From: Terriglobales bacterium
GTDB taxonomy: Bacteria; Acidobacteriota; Terriglobia; Terriglobales; Acidobacteriaceae
Direction of reading: 5' to 3'
Assembly: GCA_035651995.1 (NCBI GenBank)
Contig: DASRER010000039.1
Coordinates: forward strand, 62,001 to 126,000
DNA length: 64,000 nt
The translations under genes were made by a program, and so were the position numbers. Of this stretch, positions 3,823 through 59,727 are shown in pieces; position 1 is the first letter of the stretch; each line of letters starts with the position of its first letter. Below the pieces are notes generated by a model. It was not told the origin of the DNA, did no database searches, and was given only the letters and a program-made list of their open reading frames with translations.

Positions 3823-4134
3823 CTACGCGATCTTCACACCGTCCAGGCTGACCACCGGCTCCACGCTCACCGCCTCGGCCGTGTGGGAAGCGCCGCGCGG
3901 CACGGCAATCGCGTCGCCCGGGCCCAGCACCGCTTCGTCGCGCCCCATGGTGATGTGCAGCCGCCCGCTCACCACGGCGTCCATCTTGTCCAGGTCGTGC
4001 GTGTGCGGCCCGAAGTATGTGCCCTGCGGATACACGTACCGCGACACCCGGTACCCGAGCTGCTCCAGCTTCCGCCGCATCGCTGCTTCACTCAGCGGCC
4101 CCTCCCGGTCAGCGTCCCAATGGATGACGTTCAT
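3823..4134 (-). CDS. Single-domain cupin protein
   Basis: Small cytoplasmic beta-barrel of 103 residues, close to one cupin_2 domain. Cupin motif 1 is visible as G-P-H-T-H (H44, H46) with D48/D51 nearby. Motif 2 is GPGDAIAVPRGASH, giving a third histidine at H84, so a metal site (Fe, Mn or Zn) is plausible. It resembles stand-alone cupins that bind small metabolites; no reaction can be assigned. ATG at 4134 lies exactly 6 nt after TAAACT with no Shine-Dalgarno, suggesting a leaderless mRNA. It sits alone between a divergent-looking spacer and an outer-membrane protein gene on the same strand. Confidence 0.8.
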   Translation of the reverse strand: MNVIHWDADREGPLSEAAMRRKLEQLGYRVSRYVYPQGTYFGPHTHDLDKMDAVVSGRLHITMGRDEAVLGPGDAIAVPRGASHTAEAVSVEPVVSLDGVKIA

Positions 4135-4146
4135 TGCGACAGTTTA
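4135..4146 (-). promoter_or_regulatory. -10 element for a leaderless cupin transcript
   Basis: Reading leftward, TAAACT (4146-4141) is followed by 6 nt and the ATG at 4134. The expected transcription start therefore falls on the A of the start codon. No purine-rich Shine-Dalgarno is present. Confidence 0.5.
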
Positions 4147-4180
4147 CCGCCGGCGAAATGAATGGGGTGGCTTTGGTCCC

Positions 4181-4208
4181 CGTTTCATCCGCGTGGATCC
4201 GCGGTAAG
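4181..4208. repeat. Short repeat, ATCCGCGT(GG) type
   Basis: Two adjacent units, TTTCATCCGCG and TGGATCCGCGG, lie between the cupin start and the end of the outer-membrane protein gene. It has the same architecture as the other degenerate intergenic tandem repeats but a different unit sequence. Confidence 0.45.
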
Positions 4209-4215
4209 CTTTTTC

Positions 4216-5025
4216 TCACTTTTTGGACCGCGGAAACGGGAACCGCTGGAAGCGGTACCCCACGATCGTCTTCACCAGCAGGCGTTCCGTGCTGGCCGTT
4301 GTGCCCACGCCCACTCCGACGTTAAATTCCCAGTTCGGCCCGAAATCCACGTCGAAAGTGGGCACGATCTGCTGCTCCTGCTCGTGCAGCGGGTCCAGGT
4401 TTCCGATGGGCCCCAGCGCTCCGTAGTACTCCAGGCCGAAGGCGATGCGCCTGGTCACGTCGTAGCTGACTTTGGCATTGGGCGAGAACTCCCAGCCAAG
4501 CTTCTGGCTGGGGCCGCGAAAGGATTTCTCCACCGTGGGATTGAACGCCCAATACCACTTGCCCGCTTTCTTGTCGACGATTGGCCGAAGCTCCCACGTC
4601 CACGTGTCGGCGGAAAAGTTCGGACGCACGTAGCCGAACTCGGTCGAGAGGCTCACGCCCACCGGCCAGCGCCACTTCTCCGGCGCCCGCACTCGTGGAC
4701 GGATGTGCGTGCCCACGAACTGCCATCCGTCGCGCACGCTTGCCGAGCTGAACAGGTAGTAGCCGGTCTCGAACCACGAGTTCCAGCCGTGCGTGATCTC
4801 CAGCGTCTCGTGGAACGCATGGTTGGTCGGCAGCTCGCCGTCGGACGAAACCGTCTTGCGGCCGTCAATCGTGAAGTTGCTGTGCAGCTCCACCATGGTC
4901 CGCTTCGCATCCACCGTGTCGCCGGGATAGACCTGGATTTCGTAGTTTTCCTGCGCGCGGGCGCAGGTTGCGGAGGCGGGCGCCACGAAGAGAAGGACAA
5001 GGACCCTGATTGTTCGTCGGCGCAT
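4216..5025 (-). CDS. Putative outer-membrane beta-barrel/transporter-like protein
   Basis: 269 residues starting MRRRTIRVLVLLF with a hydrophobic stretch and ATCARAQ, a good signal peptide with cleavage near residue 25. The mature part alternates aromatic and polar residues in repeated strands (WNSWFETGYYLF, WELRPIVDKK, WYWAFNPTVEK, IAFGLEYYGAL, GPNWEFNVGVGVG), the pattern of an outer-membrane beta-barrel related to putative transporter/MetA-like families. No specific substrate is inferable. The ATG at 5025 was chosen because the signal peptide begins there; the open frame extends upstream into unrelated sequence. The diguanylate cyclase gene is divergent from it. Confidence 0.7.
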   Translation of the reverse strand: MRRRTIRVLVLLFVAPASATCARAQENYEIQVYPGDTVDAKRTMVELHSNFTIDGRKTVSSDGELPTNHAFHETLEITHGWNSWFETGYYLFSSASVRDGWQFVGTHIRPRVRAPEKWRWPVGVSLSTEFGYVRPNFSADTWTWELRPIVDKKAGKWYWAFNPTVEKSFRGPSQKLGWEFSPNAKVSYDVTRRIAFGLEYYGALGPIGNLDPLHEQEQQIVPTFDVDFGPNWEFNVGVGVGTTASTERLLVKTIVGYRFQRFPFPRSKK

Positions 5026-5088
5026 CGGCTGACTTGGTTCGCTAATAGCCAAGGGCCAGGCCAAAAGCGCTTCCCCGCATTGTCCAAC

Positions 5089-6441
5089 GTGTGGCAAGAA
5101 CCGGCAAGCGGTTTTCGAATTCGGCGCTTCGGCGATTCGGCAAACCAGACGAACCACGAACGCTATCCTCCGCCCGCGGTCCGCGCGGCCATAATCGAAC
5201 CGACCGACCTGCCGAAGGAGACCGGTTCGCTGCCGCCGTCGTTTAAGTCGCTGAGTGCCCTCCTTGCGCCGGGCGCGCTGCTTGTCGCCGCGCTGGTTGG
5301 GCTGCATGTGACGGCGGCGCGGCCGGCCGTTCGCGAGTTCCTCGATTTCTATCCTTACATTGTCCTCGTGCTCGGCGCGCTGCTCGCCCTGCGCTTTCAT
5401 TCCAGCCGCAGCCTGTTCGCATTGGCTGCGCTCGCTTTGGCCGCGCGATATTCGCTGCCCGCAGCTCCCGCGGTCACGCGCGGCTTCGTCGCCGTGCTGT
5501 TGCCGATGAACCTGGCCGCGATCACCTGCGTTCGCGAGCGCGGCGTGCTGACACCTGCTGCCGCGGTGCGCATCGGCACGCTCGCCTGCCAGGCCGTGCT
5601 GGTCAGCGTGCTCTCCCGCCCCGAGATCGCGTGGACGCACTGGATCGCGCATCCGCTGCTGCCCTGGGCTGCGGCGACGCTCGCCGGGTTCATGGTCTTG
5701 CTGCGGTTCGTCGCGGTTGCCGATCCGCTGACCGCCGCCTTTCTCTGGTGCGTGCCGTCGTACCTCGTCGCGCAGGCGGCGAACAGCACGCCGATGCGCA
5801 ACGCGGTCTTCGCCACCGCCGGCGCGGTCGTGCTGCTCGGCCTGGTCGAGCGCGGATACCGCCTCGCCTACCACGACGCGCTCACCGGCCTCCCCGGTCG
5901 CCGCGCCTTCGACGAAATGGCCGCCGAGCTGCCCGAGATCTACTCGGTTGCGCTAGTGGACGTGGACCACTTCAAAAAGTTCAACGATCTTTACGGACAC
6001 GAAACCGGCGACCAGGTGTTGCGCATGGTCGCCTCGCGGCTGGCGCGCGTCGGCGATGGCGGACGCGCGTTCCGCTGGGGAGGCGAAGAGTTCGTGCTCG
6101 TCTTCCCCGGACGCACCGTCGATCAAGCCCTCGACGAAGCCGACGAAATCCGCCAAGCCATTGCCGACAGCAGCTTCGTTGTGCGCAGTCCCGATCGCCG
6201 CAAGAAAGGCCCGAACGACCGAGGTCCCGTTCGCATGACGGAGAAGGAAGCAGCGGTCACAGTAAGCATGGGACTGGCTGATCCGGCCCGCGGACGGCTC
6301 ACGGTCGACCAGGTCGTGCACGTGGCTGATCAGGCGTTGTACTTCGCGAAAGAGTCGGGCCGCAATCGCATCGAGACAATGCGATCGCTCGTGCGGCACC
6401 GCAAAGCGGCGGGCGTGGGGAAGCTGCGCTCAGCGCAGTGA
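5089..6441 (+). CDS. Membrane-bound GGDEF diguanylate cyclase
   Basis: Predicted to make cyclic di-GMP from two GTP at the inner membrane. The N-terminal half has six or so hydrophobic segments (from ALLAPGALLVAAL to AVFATAGAVVLLGL), followed by a GGDEF domain beginning near YHDALTGLPGRRAF. The active-site loop is RWGGEEF (about residue 330), catalytically competent; the RxxD allosteric inhibitory site five residues upstream is absent. A basic insertion (RSPDRRKKGPNDRG) precedes the last conserved strand. The start is uncertain: GTG at 5089 is the only plausible in-frame start near the first membrane segment, and a later start cannot be excluded. A PilZ receptor protein is encoded at 30.5 kb. 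Confidence 0.8.
   Translation: MWQEPASGFRIRRFGDSANQTNHERYPPPAVRAAIIEPTDLPKETGSLPPSFKSLSALLAPGALLVAALVGLHVTAARPAVREFLDFYPYIVLVLGALLALRFHSSRSLFALAALALAARYSLPAAPAVTRGFVAVLLPMNLAAITCVRERGVLTPAAAVRIGTLACQAVLVSVLSRPEIAWTHWIAHPLLPWAAATLAGFMVLLRFVAVADPLTAAFLWCVPSYLVAQAANSTPMRNAVFATAGAVVLLGLVERGYRLAYHDALTGLPGRRAFDEMAAELPEIYSVALVDVDHFKKFNDLYGHETGDQVLRMVASRLARVGDGGRAFRWGGEEFVLVFPGRTVDQALDEADEIRQAIADSSFVVRSPDRRKKGPNDRGPVRMTEKEAAVTVSMGLADPARGRLTVDQVVHVADQALYFAKESGRNRIETMRSLVRHRKAAGVGKLRSAQ
5116..5144. repeat. Short tandem repeat, ATTCGGC type
   Basis: Three or four degenerate units: GAATTCGGCG, CTTCGGCG and ATTCGGCAAA. The same unit recurs at 25785-25822. It lies in the divergent gap between the outer-membrane protein and the cyclase, or in the extreme 5' end of the latter. 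Confidence 0.5.
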
Positions 6442-6460
6442 GGCCCAACTCAACGGCAGA

Positions 6461-8560
6461 TCACTTCGGCTGCGCCGGCGCGGCTGCCTTCTTCTTGGGC
6501 TTCGGTGCGGGTTGTCCTGCCGCCTTCGGCGCCCCGCGTGGCGCCACGCTCGGGTCGTACATGCTGCCGTAGAGCAGGTACTGCCGCGCCGCGTCCCGCG
6601 GATAGCTGATGGTCACGGCCGCGACTTTCGGGCCCGCCATCGTTGCCGTCAACTCGGGATTGATTCCCACCCAGTAAGTCGGCAGATTCAGCTTGCGGTA
6701 GCGCTCCACCACTTCGTCGCGCACCTTGGGGTCGAAATGGACACCGTACGTGTCCACCAGCGCCTTGATACCGTTGTAGTCGCCCTCCGCTTTGGTGCGC
6801 ATCACTTCGGCGAGAAGCATGCCGACTCCCTCGCGCATCTTCTGATAATCGGTCACCTCCACGTAATGCTTGCCGTCGCGTACGAACTCGCGGATGGCGC
6901 CAGTCTTGTCCATGATGTAGCGAGCGATCATCTGCCGATCGCGCTGGTGGTCTTCTTCAATCGTGTCGCCGCGCGGAATGCGGCGGAGCTGCGTCAGCAT
7001 GGTGAGCGCCTGGCTGTCGTACATCGCCTTAGCCACGTTTTCCTGGTCGCTGATGAGGCCAAGCTCCTTCAACTTCGGGTCCCATACGTTCCACAGCGCC
7101 ATCAGGTCGGCGCGGCCTTCTTCCATGGTGGAGTAGTACTCCTTCAGATAGGCCTCCGATCCCCTGGACATGCGCTCACTCAGTTTGCCGGAGCCGTGCC
7201 CGATCACTTCGTGCATGGCGGTGAGCAGGTCGCTGGCCTCGGCGCCGTACTTCTTGCCGCGTTCCACCACCTCGGGCGAGGCAGCGAACTGCTCCAGCGA
7301 CGCGTGACCTGACGCGTTCGACAACGCGCGCGCGCTGCCGGTGAACAGAAAATTCTTGGTGCCGTATTTTTCGCGAATTTCGTTTTCGTTGGGCAGATTG
7401 TCGCCCACCGTGGTCACGTGGAAATCGCCCGCCTCGATGATTGTCTCGACCGCCTTCACCACCGGCGGCTTGAACGAGTGCTTCTTGTACTGCGGCGCCC
7501 ACGGCGCCTTTTCCTCGAAGTACTCGGCGTTCTGCGCGAGCTTGATCATGGCATCGGTGACTTTCTTGTCGGTGATGCTCACGAAGCTCTGCGAGCTTCC
7601 CTTGGCAGCGCGGGCGTCGCGGTATACCTCGATGAAGCCGTTGGCGAAGTCAACAGTCGCATCGTTCTGAACCCAATCCGCGCCAAACTTCAACCAATCG
7701 CTGAACTCACCGGTCTGGTAGAAGCGGATCAGGTCAGCGATCACGCGCCCTTGGTCGGGAGAAGCCGCGGCACGAGCCTTCTCCAAAAACCCGATCGCCT
7801 TCTTCAGGTAGACCGCGTACAGGCCCGCGGGAATCTTTCCGTCCGGCGTTCCGGCGCGATACACGATCTCTTTCAGCTTGCCATCGGGTCCCTTCACCAC
7901 TCGCGAGGTGAGCGGATAAGTCTCCTTGAAGCCCTGCAGGTCGGCGAGCGTCACGCCGAGGTAGAACGTGTTGGAGCTGGCCTGGACGATGTCTCTCCCG
8001 TCTTTCGGCGTCTTCGCGGTCGTCATCGGCTCAAAGTTCGGGTCGAAAATGGATGGCCGCAGCTCCTCCAGCTCTTTGTTCAGGGCAGCGGGCGTGGCAA
8101 TCGCCAGCAGATCGCCGTACTTCATCTTGAACGCGCCATTGCGCTGGGCAGCCGTCGCCGCCTTCTGGAGCTCTGCGAATGTGAAAGACGGCAGGAACTT
8201 CTGCGCGGTGTTCTCGTTGTGATTGCCGCGGTTGCCCCAGAACAGCTTGGCGTACTCGGTAATCTCGCTCATCACGGCAGGATCAATGCCGGATGAGTGC
8301 GACACAATCCCCTCCAGCAGCCGCTTCTGGCGGATGCCGTACCGCGAGAGCTGGTCGTAGATGATCGGATCAATCGCGATCGCTGCCTGTGACAGCCAGT
8401 ACGCCAGCTCCTGCTGCTTGGGATCGAGCGCCCTGAAGCTCTCGGCTTGCAGCTGGATGAAGCCGGTGTTGCCGATGCGCTCCACCAGAACGTTGTTGCC
8501 GGTGTGCTGAGCACAGGCTGTGACAGCGAGCAGGATCAGGGCGGCGAGAGTTCGCTTCAC
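6461..8560 (-). CDS. Dipeptidyl-peptidase III family (M49) zinc metallopeptidase lipoprotein
   Basis: Predicted to remove dipeptides from the N-terminus of short peptides. The M49 zinc motif HEVIGHGSGK (HExxxH form) is at about residues 450-459, and the third ligand region EEGRADLMALW is at about 480, matching the family signature HELLGH...EECRAE. Length (699) fits the family. The N-terminus MKRTLAALILLAVTAC has a lipobox (VTAC), so it is likely exported and lipid-anchored, unlike cytosolic eukaryotic DPP III. The C-terminus is a Pro/Lys/Ala-rich tail. It converges with the cyclase gene (20 bp apart) and is divergent from a TPR protein gene. Confidence 0.88.
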   Translation of the reverse strand: MKRTLAALILLAVTACAQHTGNNVLVERIGNTGFIQLQAESFRALDPKQQELAYWLSQAAIAIDPIIYDQLSRYGIRQKRLLEGIVSHSSGIDPAVMSEITEYAKLFWGNRGNHNENTAQKFLPSFTFAELQKAATAAQRNGAFKMKYGDLLAIATPAALNKELEELRPSIFDPNFEPMTTAKTPKDGRDIVQASSNTFYLGVTLADLQGFKETYPLTSRVVKGPDGKLKEIVYRAGTPDGKIPAGLYAVYLKKAIGFLEKARAAASPDQGRVIADLIRFYQTGEFSDWLKFGADWVQNDATVDFANGFIEVYRDARAAKGSSQSFVSITDKKVTDAMIKLAQNAEYFEEKAPWAPQYKKHSFKPPVVKAVETIIEAGDFHVTTVGDNLPNENEIREKYGTKNFLFTGSARALSNASGHASLEQFAASPEVVERGKKYGAEASDLLTAMHEVIGHGSGKLSERMSRGSEAYLKEYYSTMEEGRADLMALWNVWDPKLKELGLISDQENVAKAMYDSQALTMLTQLRRIPRGDTIEEDHQRDRQMIARYIMDKTGAIREFVRDGKHYVEVTDYQKMREGVGMLLAEVMRTKAEGDYNGIKALVDTYGVHFDPKVRDEVVERYRKLNLPTYWVGINPELTATMAGPKVAAVTISYPRDAARQYLLYGSMYDPSVAPRGAPKAAGQPAPKPKKKAAAPAQPK

Positions 8561-8741
8561 GAAGTATTCTCCGAGGCCGGGCGCTCTCTGAGCGCTGCAG
8601 CGATATGCGGGCAGCCAACGATATTAACGGAGCAGGCCGGACCTGGCCAACCGGCCCAGTCACCCACCGAACACCCAGCCACATTGACCGGCCGCGCGGC
8701 GCGATGCTAACTTCGCTTCCCGCCTACCGGAGGTCCCCCGG

Positions 8742-10418
8742 ATGCACTATCGAATCTGTCGTGGTTCCCTGCTCAGAATGAGTTTTGCGTTGCTGGCTGT
8801 CGCTCTGGCGAGTGTTGCCGGGCTCGCACACGCGCAGCATGCCCGCCCTGCCGCTGCCCCGGCGGCGCGCCTGATGCCGGGCGTCGGCGAAGTGAACCAT
8901 CCTGTGCGCACCAGCAATCCGGAGGCGCAGCGCTTCTTCAACCAGGGGCTGGCGCTCGATTACGGCTTCAACCACGACGAGGCGGAAAAAGCCTTCTGGC
9001 GGGCGGCTGAACTCGATCCCACGATGGCCATGGCATGGTGGGGCGTCGCGCTGGTGGTCGGGCCAAACTACAACCTGCCGATTGATCAGGAACGCGAGAA
9101 GAAAGCGTTCGAAGCCATTCAAAAAGCGCGCCGGCTCGCAGCCAACGGACCGGAGCCCGAGCGCGATTACATTGAAGCTTTGGCGAAGCGGTATACCGAC
9201 AATCCGAACGCCGACTTCCACCAGCTCGACGTGGACTACAACAACGCCATGCGCGAGCTATCGAAAAAGTATCCCGACGACCTCGATGCGGCCACGCTCT
9301 TCGCCGAGAGCGGCATGACCCTGCGTCCGTGGAAGCTGTGGAACGCGGACCACACACCCGCGCCCGGCACCGGCGAGATTGTCGAAACCCTGGAATCGGT
9401 CCTGCGCCGCAATCCGCAGCACATCGGCGCCAATCACTTCTACATTCACGCGGTCGAGGCGTCGGCCCATCCCGAGGCCGCGATGCCGTCAGCGCTGCGG
9501 CTGGCGGCGCTCGCGCCGAGCTCCGGACACCTGGTCCACATGCCGGGACACATCTTCATCCGCACCGGCGACCACGAGTCCTCGCTGGCCACCAACATCA
9601 ACGCCGCGCGCGCCGACGAGAACTACATCAAGACGACGCAGGCCCACGGTGTTTATCCGATGATGTACTACACCCATAACCTGCACTTCATCGTGATGGA
9701 AAACGCCATGATGGGCCGCTACGCCGAGTCGCTGGCGGCCGCGCGCAAAGTGCAGGCCCATGTGGGTCCGCACATCAAAGACATGGACCTGCTCGACTTC
9801 TTCAACACCATGCCGTCGCTCGTCATGGTGCGCTTCCGCAAGTGGGACGACATTCTGAAGTCGCCCGCGCCTGCCGCCGGCAGCGGCCCTTACACCGCCG
9901 GCACATGGCATTACGCGCGGGGGCTCGCCTTCGCGGCTCAGGGTAAAGAAAAAGAGACCATCACCGAGCTCGACGCGTTGCAGAAACTCGCGCCTGAGAT
10001 GGCCAAGATTCCTACCAACACCGTCGGCCCGGGCAATGCGCAGAAAATTCCGGTGATCGCCGCGCATGTGATCCAGGCACGCCTGGCGTCGTCGCTGGGC
10101 AAAACGGACGAAGCCGTTGCCCACCTGCGGGAGGCAGTCTCGATCCAGGACACACTCGACTACAACGAACCGCCTGACTGGTTCTATCCGGTTCGTGAAA
10201 CGCTCGGCGGCACTCTCCTGCGCGCGGGACGCGCGGCCGAAGCCGAGCAGGTATTTCGCGCCGATCTGGCCATGAATCCGCGCAATGCCCGCTCTTTGTT
10301 CGGTCTGATGGAAAGCCTGAAGGCGCAAAAGCGCGCGCACGACGCAGCATTCGTCGAGCAGGAATTCAAGTCGGCGTGGAAGGGCGCGGACACGCAGCTA
10401 CGCATCGAAGACTTGTAG
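8742..10418 (+). CDS. Secreted tetratricopeptide-repeat protein
   Basis: 558 residues with an N-terminal signal peptide (MSFALLAVALASVAGLAHAQ, residues 13-32). At least three TPR-like helical pairs are visible: FNQGLALDYGFNHDEAEKAFWRAAELDP near residue 70, MMGRYAESLAAARKV near 320 and LGKTDEAVAHLREAV near 450; GRAAEAEQVFRADLAMNPRNARSLFG is a further unit near 505. Such proteins act as periplasmic or outer-membrane scaffolds; no catalytic motif is evident. Start ATG 8742 has GGAGG about 8 nt upstream. It is divergently transcribed from the DPP III gene across a 181-bp gap in which no operator is obvious. Confidence 0.8.
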   Translation: MHYRICRGSLLRMSFALLAVALASVAGLAHAQHARPAAAPAARLMPGVGEVNHPVRTSNPEAQRFFNQGLALDYGFNHDEAEKAFWRAAELDPTMAMAWWGVALVVGPNYNLPIDQEREKKAFEAIQKARRLAANGPEPERDYIEALAKRYTDNPNADFHQLDVDYNNAMRELSKKYPDDLDAATLFAESGMTLRPWKLWNADHTPAPGTGEIVETLESVLRRNPQHIGANHFYIHAVEASAHPEAAMPSALRLAALAPSSGHLVHMPGHIFIRTGDHESSLATNINAARADENYIKTTQAHGVYPMMYYTHNLHFIVMENAMMGRYAESLAAARKVQAHVGPHIKDMDLLDFFNTMPSLVMVRFRKWDDILKSPAPAAGSGPYTAGTWHYARGLAFAAQGKEKETITELDALQKLAPEMAKIPTNTVGPGNAQKIPVIAAHVIQARLASSLGKTDEAVAHLREAVSIQDTLDYNEPPDWFYPVRETLGGTLLRAGRAAEAEQVFRADLAMNPRNARSLFGLMESLKAQKRAHDAAFVEQEFKSAWKGADTQLRIEDL

Positions 10419-58833: not shown

Positions 58834-58868
58834 CGGGTTCAATGGCCCGATGCCCCGATGTTCAATCA
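58834..58868. repeat. Short tandem repeat, CCCGATG type
   Basis: GGTTCAATGGCCCGATG, CCCCGATG and TTCAAT: two or three units just upstream of the small protein gene. Related GTCATCCGGTCGTTGAAT lies at 58781-58800 in the same gap. Confidence 0.45.
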
Positions 58869-58874
58869 GCCGGT

Positions 58875-59201
58875 ATGCCTGATCCCTCCACCCAGCTCCA
58901 GCACCTCTACGCCGCCGGCTTCGACCTCCAGACCTTCGAGCGCTTTCCGCGGGCCGTAGGGGTGACAAGAGGGAATTGCATTGCCCTCGTCGAAGCCACA
59001 CCCGAGGGCTTGCGGCTGATCGGTACGCCCGGCTGGCGCATGGGCGGCGCCGCCGGCGGCACGCTGGGCGTTCTGGTGGAGCGGGACGGCCGCCAGGTCT
59101 TCCAGGCCAAGCAGGAAACGGTCGAGGCCACTGCTGAGCGGCTGGCTGAACTCGCCGGGTTTCGCGCCGACCTGGAAAAAGCCCTATTGCCGTCGCCTTG
59201 A
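58875..59201 (+). CDS. Small protein of unknown function
   Basis: 108 residues from ATG 58875 (an ATG at 58842 is inside the repeat and less likely). Sequence features: LQHLYAAGFDLQTFERFPRAVGV, then two or three beta strands (NCIALVEATPEGLRLIGTPGWRMGG, GTLGVLVERDGRQVFQAKQETVEA) and a C-terminal helix. The codon pattern and composition look like a real gene. No family recognised. It converges with another small gene across the dif-like site. Confidence 0.6.
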   Translation: MPDPSTQLQHLYAAGFDLQTFERFPRAVGVTRGNCIALVEATPEGLRLIGTPGWRMGGAAGGTLGVLVERDGRQVFQAKQETVEATAERLAELAGFRADLEKALLPSP

Positions 59202-59238
59202 GGAGGCGCGCGACCGCGAAAACAGCCGCGTTTCGGTT

Positions 59239-59266
59239 CATTAACATAATATCCGTTATCGGACAT
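59239..59266 (-). other. Candidate dif site (XerC/XerD recombination site, chromosome terminus)
   Basis: 28 bp on the plus strand made of CATTAACATAA (11), TATCCG (6) and TTATCGGACAT (11). Read on the minus strand its right arm is TTATGTTAATG, against TTATGTTAAAT in the E. coli dif XerD arm. By eye 18 of 28 positions match E. coli dif, including the 12 contiguous bases TTAACATAATAT. The arms are partly palindromic around a 6-bp centre, as required. It lies in a convergent intergenic gap with no other explanation. Confidence 0.6.
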
Positions 59267-59346
59267 GCGCCGCCCAGGGACCCTGCCCGTTATGTCCTCA
59301 CGCGCAAGGGTAAGATCTCACCGCAGGTGCGGGTCCGCAGGCAGCC

Positions 59347-59538
59347 CTAGCGTTCCGCCTCAGCAGGGTTCTCAACCGCCACCTCGACCACCATCACGTT
59401 CCTCTGGAAGTCGAACCAGCTGTGGACCTTCAATGGCGGTGTAGACCCGCAGTCGTGCCTGGCGGCACGGACCTGATCGCGCATGGCCTCGGCGGTCGGG
59501 GTCTGGACTTCGTAATCGAGCTTCTTCCAACGTCCCAT
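59347..59538 (-). CDS. Small protein of unknown function
   Basis: 63 residues, starting MGRWKKLDYEVQTPTAEAMRDQVRAARHDCG, then WFDFQRNVMVVEVAVENPAEAER. Supported by a perfect Shine-Dalgarno AGGAGG five nt before the ATG at 59538. It has the look of a short alpha/beta protein; no family recognised. It stands alone. Confidence 0.6.
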   Translation of the reverse strand: MGRWKKLDYEVQTPTAEAMRDQVRAARHDCGSTPPLKVHSWFDFQRNVMVVEVAVENPAEAER

Positions 59539-59727
59539 CACGGCCTCCTGGGATGCGCCTGGCTGCGCCTGCCGTGCTGGATCGCAACCTGCCTGCCAAC
59601 ACTAACTCGCTTATTTTCTGAGGGTATGCGCAGGGGATGAAAGCAATCTTTACGCAAGCTCAGGAGTTTTTTCGCGCTTTCCCGCATATTGGGAGAGACC
59701 CAGGCCCGCGTAACCGAACTACCCCGC

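Follow-up and report, generated by a model that had tools for sequence, protein, structure and literature searches.

Among the described systems closest to the locus analyzed here is the XerCD/FtsK system of E. coli, and what is known of it (reviewed in PMC5357621) is the background to the role in dimer resolution that is proposed below. In the phylum itself, dif sites were predicted in the 3 of 3 acidobacterial genomes examined, including that of Acidobacterium capsulatum (Kono et al. 2011, PMC3025954), so that an acidobacterial dif site would be, on that prediction from 2011, an ordinary case of something known. A sequence-only reading of the 64,000-nucleotide stretch of DNA under analysis (the window) had proposed such a site at its positions 59239-59266. 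This proposal is supported by the single copy, the conservation of the site, the presence of the machinery and the position at the terminus in relatives, and the 28-mer is almost certainly the chromosomal dif site of a subdivision-1 acidobacterium, with a predicted role in dimer resolution by analogy with E. coli.

The candidate, CATTAACATAA-TATCCG-TTATCGGACAT, was present at 59239-59266 with exactly the letters, the coordinates and the 11-6-11 arrangement described in the reading, and its layout is that of dif: 28 bp in which two 11-bp arms, partially dyad-symmetric, surround a 6-bp centre, with the XerD arm conserved. The first arm, CATTAACATAA (59239-59249, plus strand), is the putative XerD-binding arm, as judged from E. 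coli, and contains TTAACATAA, the same letters as in the E. coli XerD arm; its ACA and AA showed no variation across 35 family sites. It is followed by the central region TATCCG (59250-59255, with no strand assigned), the putative strand-exchange region, whose consensus in the family is TA[T/C]C[T/C]G, and then by TTATCGGACAT (59256-59266, plus strand), to which XerC would bind on the same analogy. This XerC arm, in the form TTATC[G/A]GAC[A/G]T, is almost without variation in the family sites, and it recurs phylum-wide as well as in named genomes from other phyla, such as Nitrospirota and Deltaproteobacteria.

The 28-mer is contained in a 145-bp intergenic gap (59202-59346) between two small convergent ORFs, as the reading had noticed, one of 119 aa on the plus strand (58842-59201) and one of 64 aa on the minus strand (59347-59541), which are given here as context only and which produced no match in a Pfam search. 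An octamer GGGCAGGG with the form of a KOPS, putatively used by FtsK, occupies positions 59281-59288 of the minus strand; its presence and its direction toward the 28-mer were as reported, the distance being 14 bp and not 13. In another part of the window, between 14000 and 22000, the GC content is lower (0.585-0.60 versus around 0.65) and long ORFs run on the minus strand, possibly corresponding to acquired DNA.

The likeness to E. coli dif was recomputed with the reference sequence as printed in PMC3025954, compared in reverse complement. The 18 of 28 identical positions and the identical XerD-arm block seen in the first reading were reproduced, the latter within the 12-mer TTAACATAATAT. This is the highest score of the window and of the whole 183-kb contig around it, but the runners-up there score 17, and because 17/28 turns up elsewhere on the contig, 18/28 is weak proof when taken alone; identity to E. 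coli dif was therefore rejected as sole proof. The significance comes instead from the 12-bp core and from the conservation in relatives.

The same scores bear on the possibility of a chance likeness, in which a terminator-like or AT-rich palindrome of the convergent gap would simply resemble dif. Palindromes are common in convergent gaps, and 18/28 barely exceeds the 17 of the runners-up. The 28-mer recurs, nevertheless, in many genera with unrelated flanks, and a control pattern was found in 1 of 150 genomes. Family conservation (111/150 versus 1/150, and the profile of 35 sites) refutes a chance likeness, to which we assign a practically negligible probability.

These counts come from a search with 22 fixed positions and up to 3 mismatches allowed, with the reversed pattern as control: the site was detected in 111 of 150 family genomes, in nearly all of them as a single copy. 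Around one quarter of the family genomes gave no match at the 3-mismatch stringency, which could reflect divergence or assembly gaps. Across the phylum, the site was found in 144 of 396 sampled genomes. The core pattern TTAACATAA-N6-TTAT matched 10 of 60 family genomes, the own genome included, and the 3' bases that follow, which were not part of the search, read CGGACAT or CGGACGT in eight of these matches, CAGACAT in one and an unrelated sequence in one. A strict 21-base pattern found the own genome only, among 41 relatives, the pattern being too strict, and the family was revealed after its centre was loosened and mismatches were permitted.

When 35 distinct family sites were compared, the information content reached up to 2.25 bits inside the 28 bp, whereas the flanks averaged 0.12 bits. 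Two positions depart from this block pattern: position 2 of the arm and the T directly 3' of the block, which is partly conserved. Since the 28 bp and the following T are kept while the neighbourhood changes, the conservation is that expected of a sequence-specific binding site and not of a shared gene neighbourhood; on the alignment, its confinement to the block marks such a site. The family consensus can be written as TTWACAKAA-TAYCTG-TTATCGGACAT, and sites of the same form are present in named genomes of Acidobacteria, Nitrospirota, Deltaproteobacteria and Bacillota. A genome of the same family (G066) matches "Acidobacteria bacterium isolate gp1 AA134" without a difference over 3,019 bp, and from this identity and the family membership we infer that the host is a subdivision-1 acidobacterium.

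Of the three observations that the earlier reading had named as counting against a dif site, two, absence from close relatives and several copies per genome, were not found: most close relatives carry it, and in the own genome (a 3.66 Mb assembly, 99.35% complete, in 48 contigs) it is a single copy at 3 or fewer mismatches. Copy number also bears on a second alternative, that the 28-mer is the dif-like attachment site of a Xer-exploiting mobile element (IMEX) or plasmid. Such elements do bear dif-like sites (PMC5357621), and a few other genomes have two or three copies; in one of them (G075) the two copies (L008 and L016) have nearly the same left flank, whereas on the right their flanks part where the site ends. 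This double dif could possibly correspond to an element integrated at dif or to a mixed assembly. For the locus in the window, the single copy in its own genome, the housekeeping character of the nearby genes (MiaB-like, bifunctional nuclease, TruB and FTCD), and the presence of one site in nearly all relatives, which in the complete genomes lies close to the terminus, speak against a mobile origin, in such a way that this alternative is already largely refuted and we hold it to be very improbable.

The machinery expected for a chromosomal dif site is encoded in the own genome, with XerC-like and XerD-like proteins and an FtsK with a gamma domain. The two recombinase genes are adjacent and in tandem on another contig (C28, L027:6924-8870), an arrangement that is retained in the complete family members examined. 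Both proteins match the solved structure of E. coli XerD over almost their full length, and the XerD-like one passes NF001399, with the equivalog cut-offs narrowly missed in both cases (322.5 vs 329.6 bits for XerD-like, 321.7 vs 335.15 for XerC-like). The FtsK gamma domain was found encoded in every genome examined, including the own one, with a weak second match in G434.

The position of the site was analyzed in seven relatives assembled as single contigs, where its distance from dnaA amounts to 36-50% of the circle: 46.4% in G047, 50.1% in G434 and 36.0% in G017 with exact lengths, and around 46-50% in G132, G134, G496 and G534 with rounded lengths. In the three complete relatives G047, G017 and G434, polar motifs flip at or near the site, and so, less sharply, does GC skew, supporting its location at the terminus with a reversal of polarity. 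In G047, mostly positive skew values precede the site, and those that follow it are for the most part near zero or negative. The motif GGGNAGGG, the KOPS of the E. coli type, points toward versus away from the site in ratios of 33:5 (G047), 34:14 (G017) and 28:20 (G434, not significant), whereas AGGGAAG gave 69:4, 48:8 and 56:13, respectively. Since the polarity of GGGNAGGG is no more than modest in two of these three relatives, the octamer GGGCAGGG beside the site is weak evidence.

On the own contig (C39, 183 kb), no sign change of the GC skew was detected at the site: the skew is negative on both sides, around -0.06 to the left and -0.16 beyond 130 kb. The sign was also noisy in 20-kb samples of other contigs of this genome. 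With the genome in 48 contigs and no flip on C39, the skew switch, whose lying far away was the third observation named in the earlier reading, is unconfirmed at this position in the own genome. On this contig, GGGNAGGG appears 0 times forward and 11 times reverse to the right of the site, and 8 and 8 times to its left; within 50 kb, a radius picked post hoc, the ratio of rightward to leftward copies is 5:1 on the left side and 0:9 on the right side. The motifs gave a clearer pattern than the skew: nearly all of them between 70 and 121 kb of the contig point rightward and all those beyond 121 kb leftward, and the change of direction falls somewhere from 118 kb to the site, within around 3 kb of it. 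For the check proposed in the sequence-only reading, a reversal of skew and KOPS at the site, the three complete relatives give support, and on the own contig the local motif polarity switches and the GC skew does not; its claim that the window spans the terminus likewise has in its favour the position and polarity in relatives and the local motif switch, and lacks the change of skew sign on the contig. From 0 to around 65 kb the motifs of the contig are mostly leftward again, with a second switch at around 65-72 kb (approximately 4000-10000 of the window), as might be left by an inversion close to the terminus or by a join in the assembly. Both the constant sign of the skew and this second switch count against the proposed dif site.

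AGGGAAG was the most dif-polarised of 15,270 heptamers, with 173 copies toward and 25 away from the site in G047, G017 and G434 together. It was discovered in G047, and in the held-out pair G017 and G434 it ranked first again (104:21). All heptamers of four G and three A, pooled, gave 3632:2332, so a strand-composition bias contributes, with AGGGAAG far above it. The recognition helix of FtsK gamma reads RIGYGRAAHLIDxM in the eight of eight family genomes read (RVGYGRAAHLIDxM in L219, among L215-L222), and RIGYNRAARIIEQME in the solved E. coli-type domain. In place of E. coli R1300 and E1303, whose substitution impairs KOPS recognition (PMC2680272), all eight family members carry H and D, the residue numbers being placed by spacing in the alignment to the solved domain. 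Together, the polarity of AGGGAAG and the H and D residues suggest a lineage-specific KOPS. That subdivision-1 Acidobacteriota orient FtsK by a motif centred on AGGGAAG and not by the E. coli GGGNAGGG, co-evolved with the altered helix (RIGYGRAAHLID vs RIGYNRAARIIE), has in our judgement an even chance of being right, and the divergence of FtsK guide motifs in a little-studied phylum is thereby made directly testable.

If the E. coli-based model applies to this dif site, recombination between two sister chromosomes would join them into a dimer, and FtsK at the septum would move along polar DNA motifs to dif, pairing both copies. The gamma domain would then activate XerD on the TTAACATAA arm, which would make the first exchange of strands within the 6-bp centre, and XerC on the TTATCGGACAT arm would carry out the second, restoring two monomers. 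Binding of XerCD and FtsK-dependent recombination at the 28-mer are predictions by analogy. The site would mark where the terminus region of replication lies in an uncultured acidobacterium, and the family-wide consensus can help to order fragmented assemblies and to mark sites for Xer-exploiting elements.

Compared with the E. coli dif/XerCD-FtsK system, the locus shares the 11-6-11 layout, an identical TTAACATAATAT (the XerD arm plus half of the centre), two recombinases, the presence of FtsK gamma and the terminus position, here seen in relatives. By contrast, the E. coli XerC arm is TTATGCGCACC on the same strand, versus TTATCGGACAT here, the XerD-like and XerC-like genes adjoin in our case, and R1300 and E1303 of the recognition helix are replaced by H and D. 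With dif of B. subtilis (CodV/RipX), it has 18 of 28 positions and a ACATAATAT core in common, whereas the rest of the arms and the centre differ. With the acidobacterial sites of Kono et al. (2011, PMC3025954), it shares the phylum.
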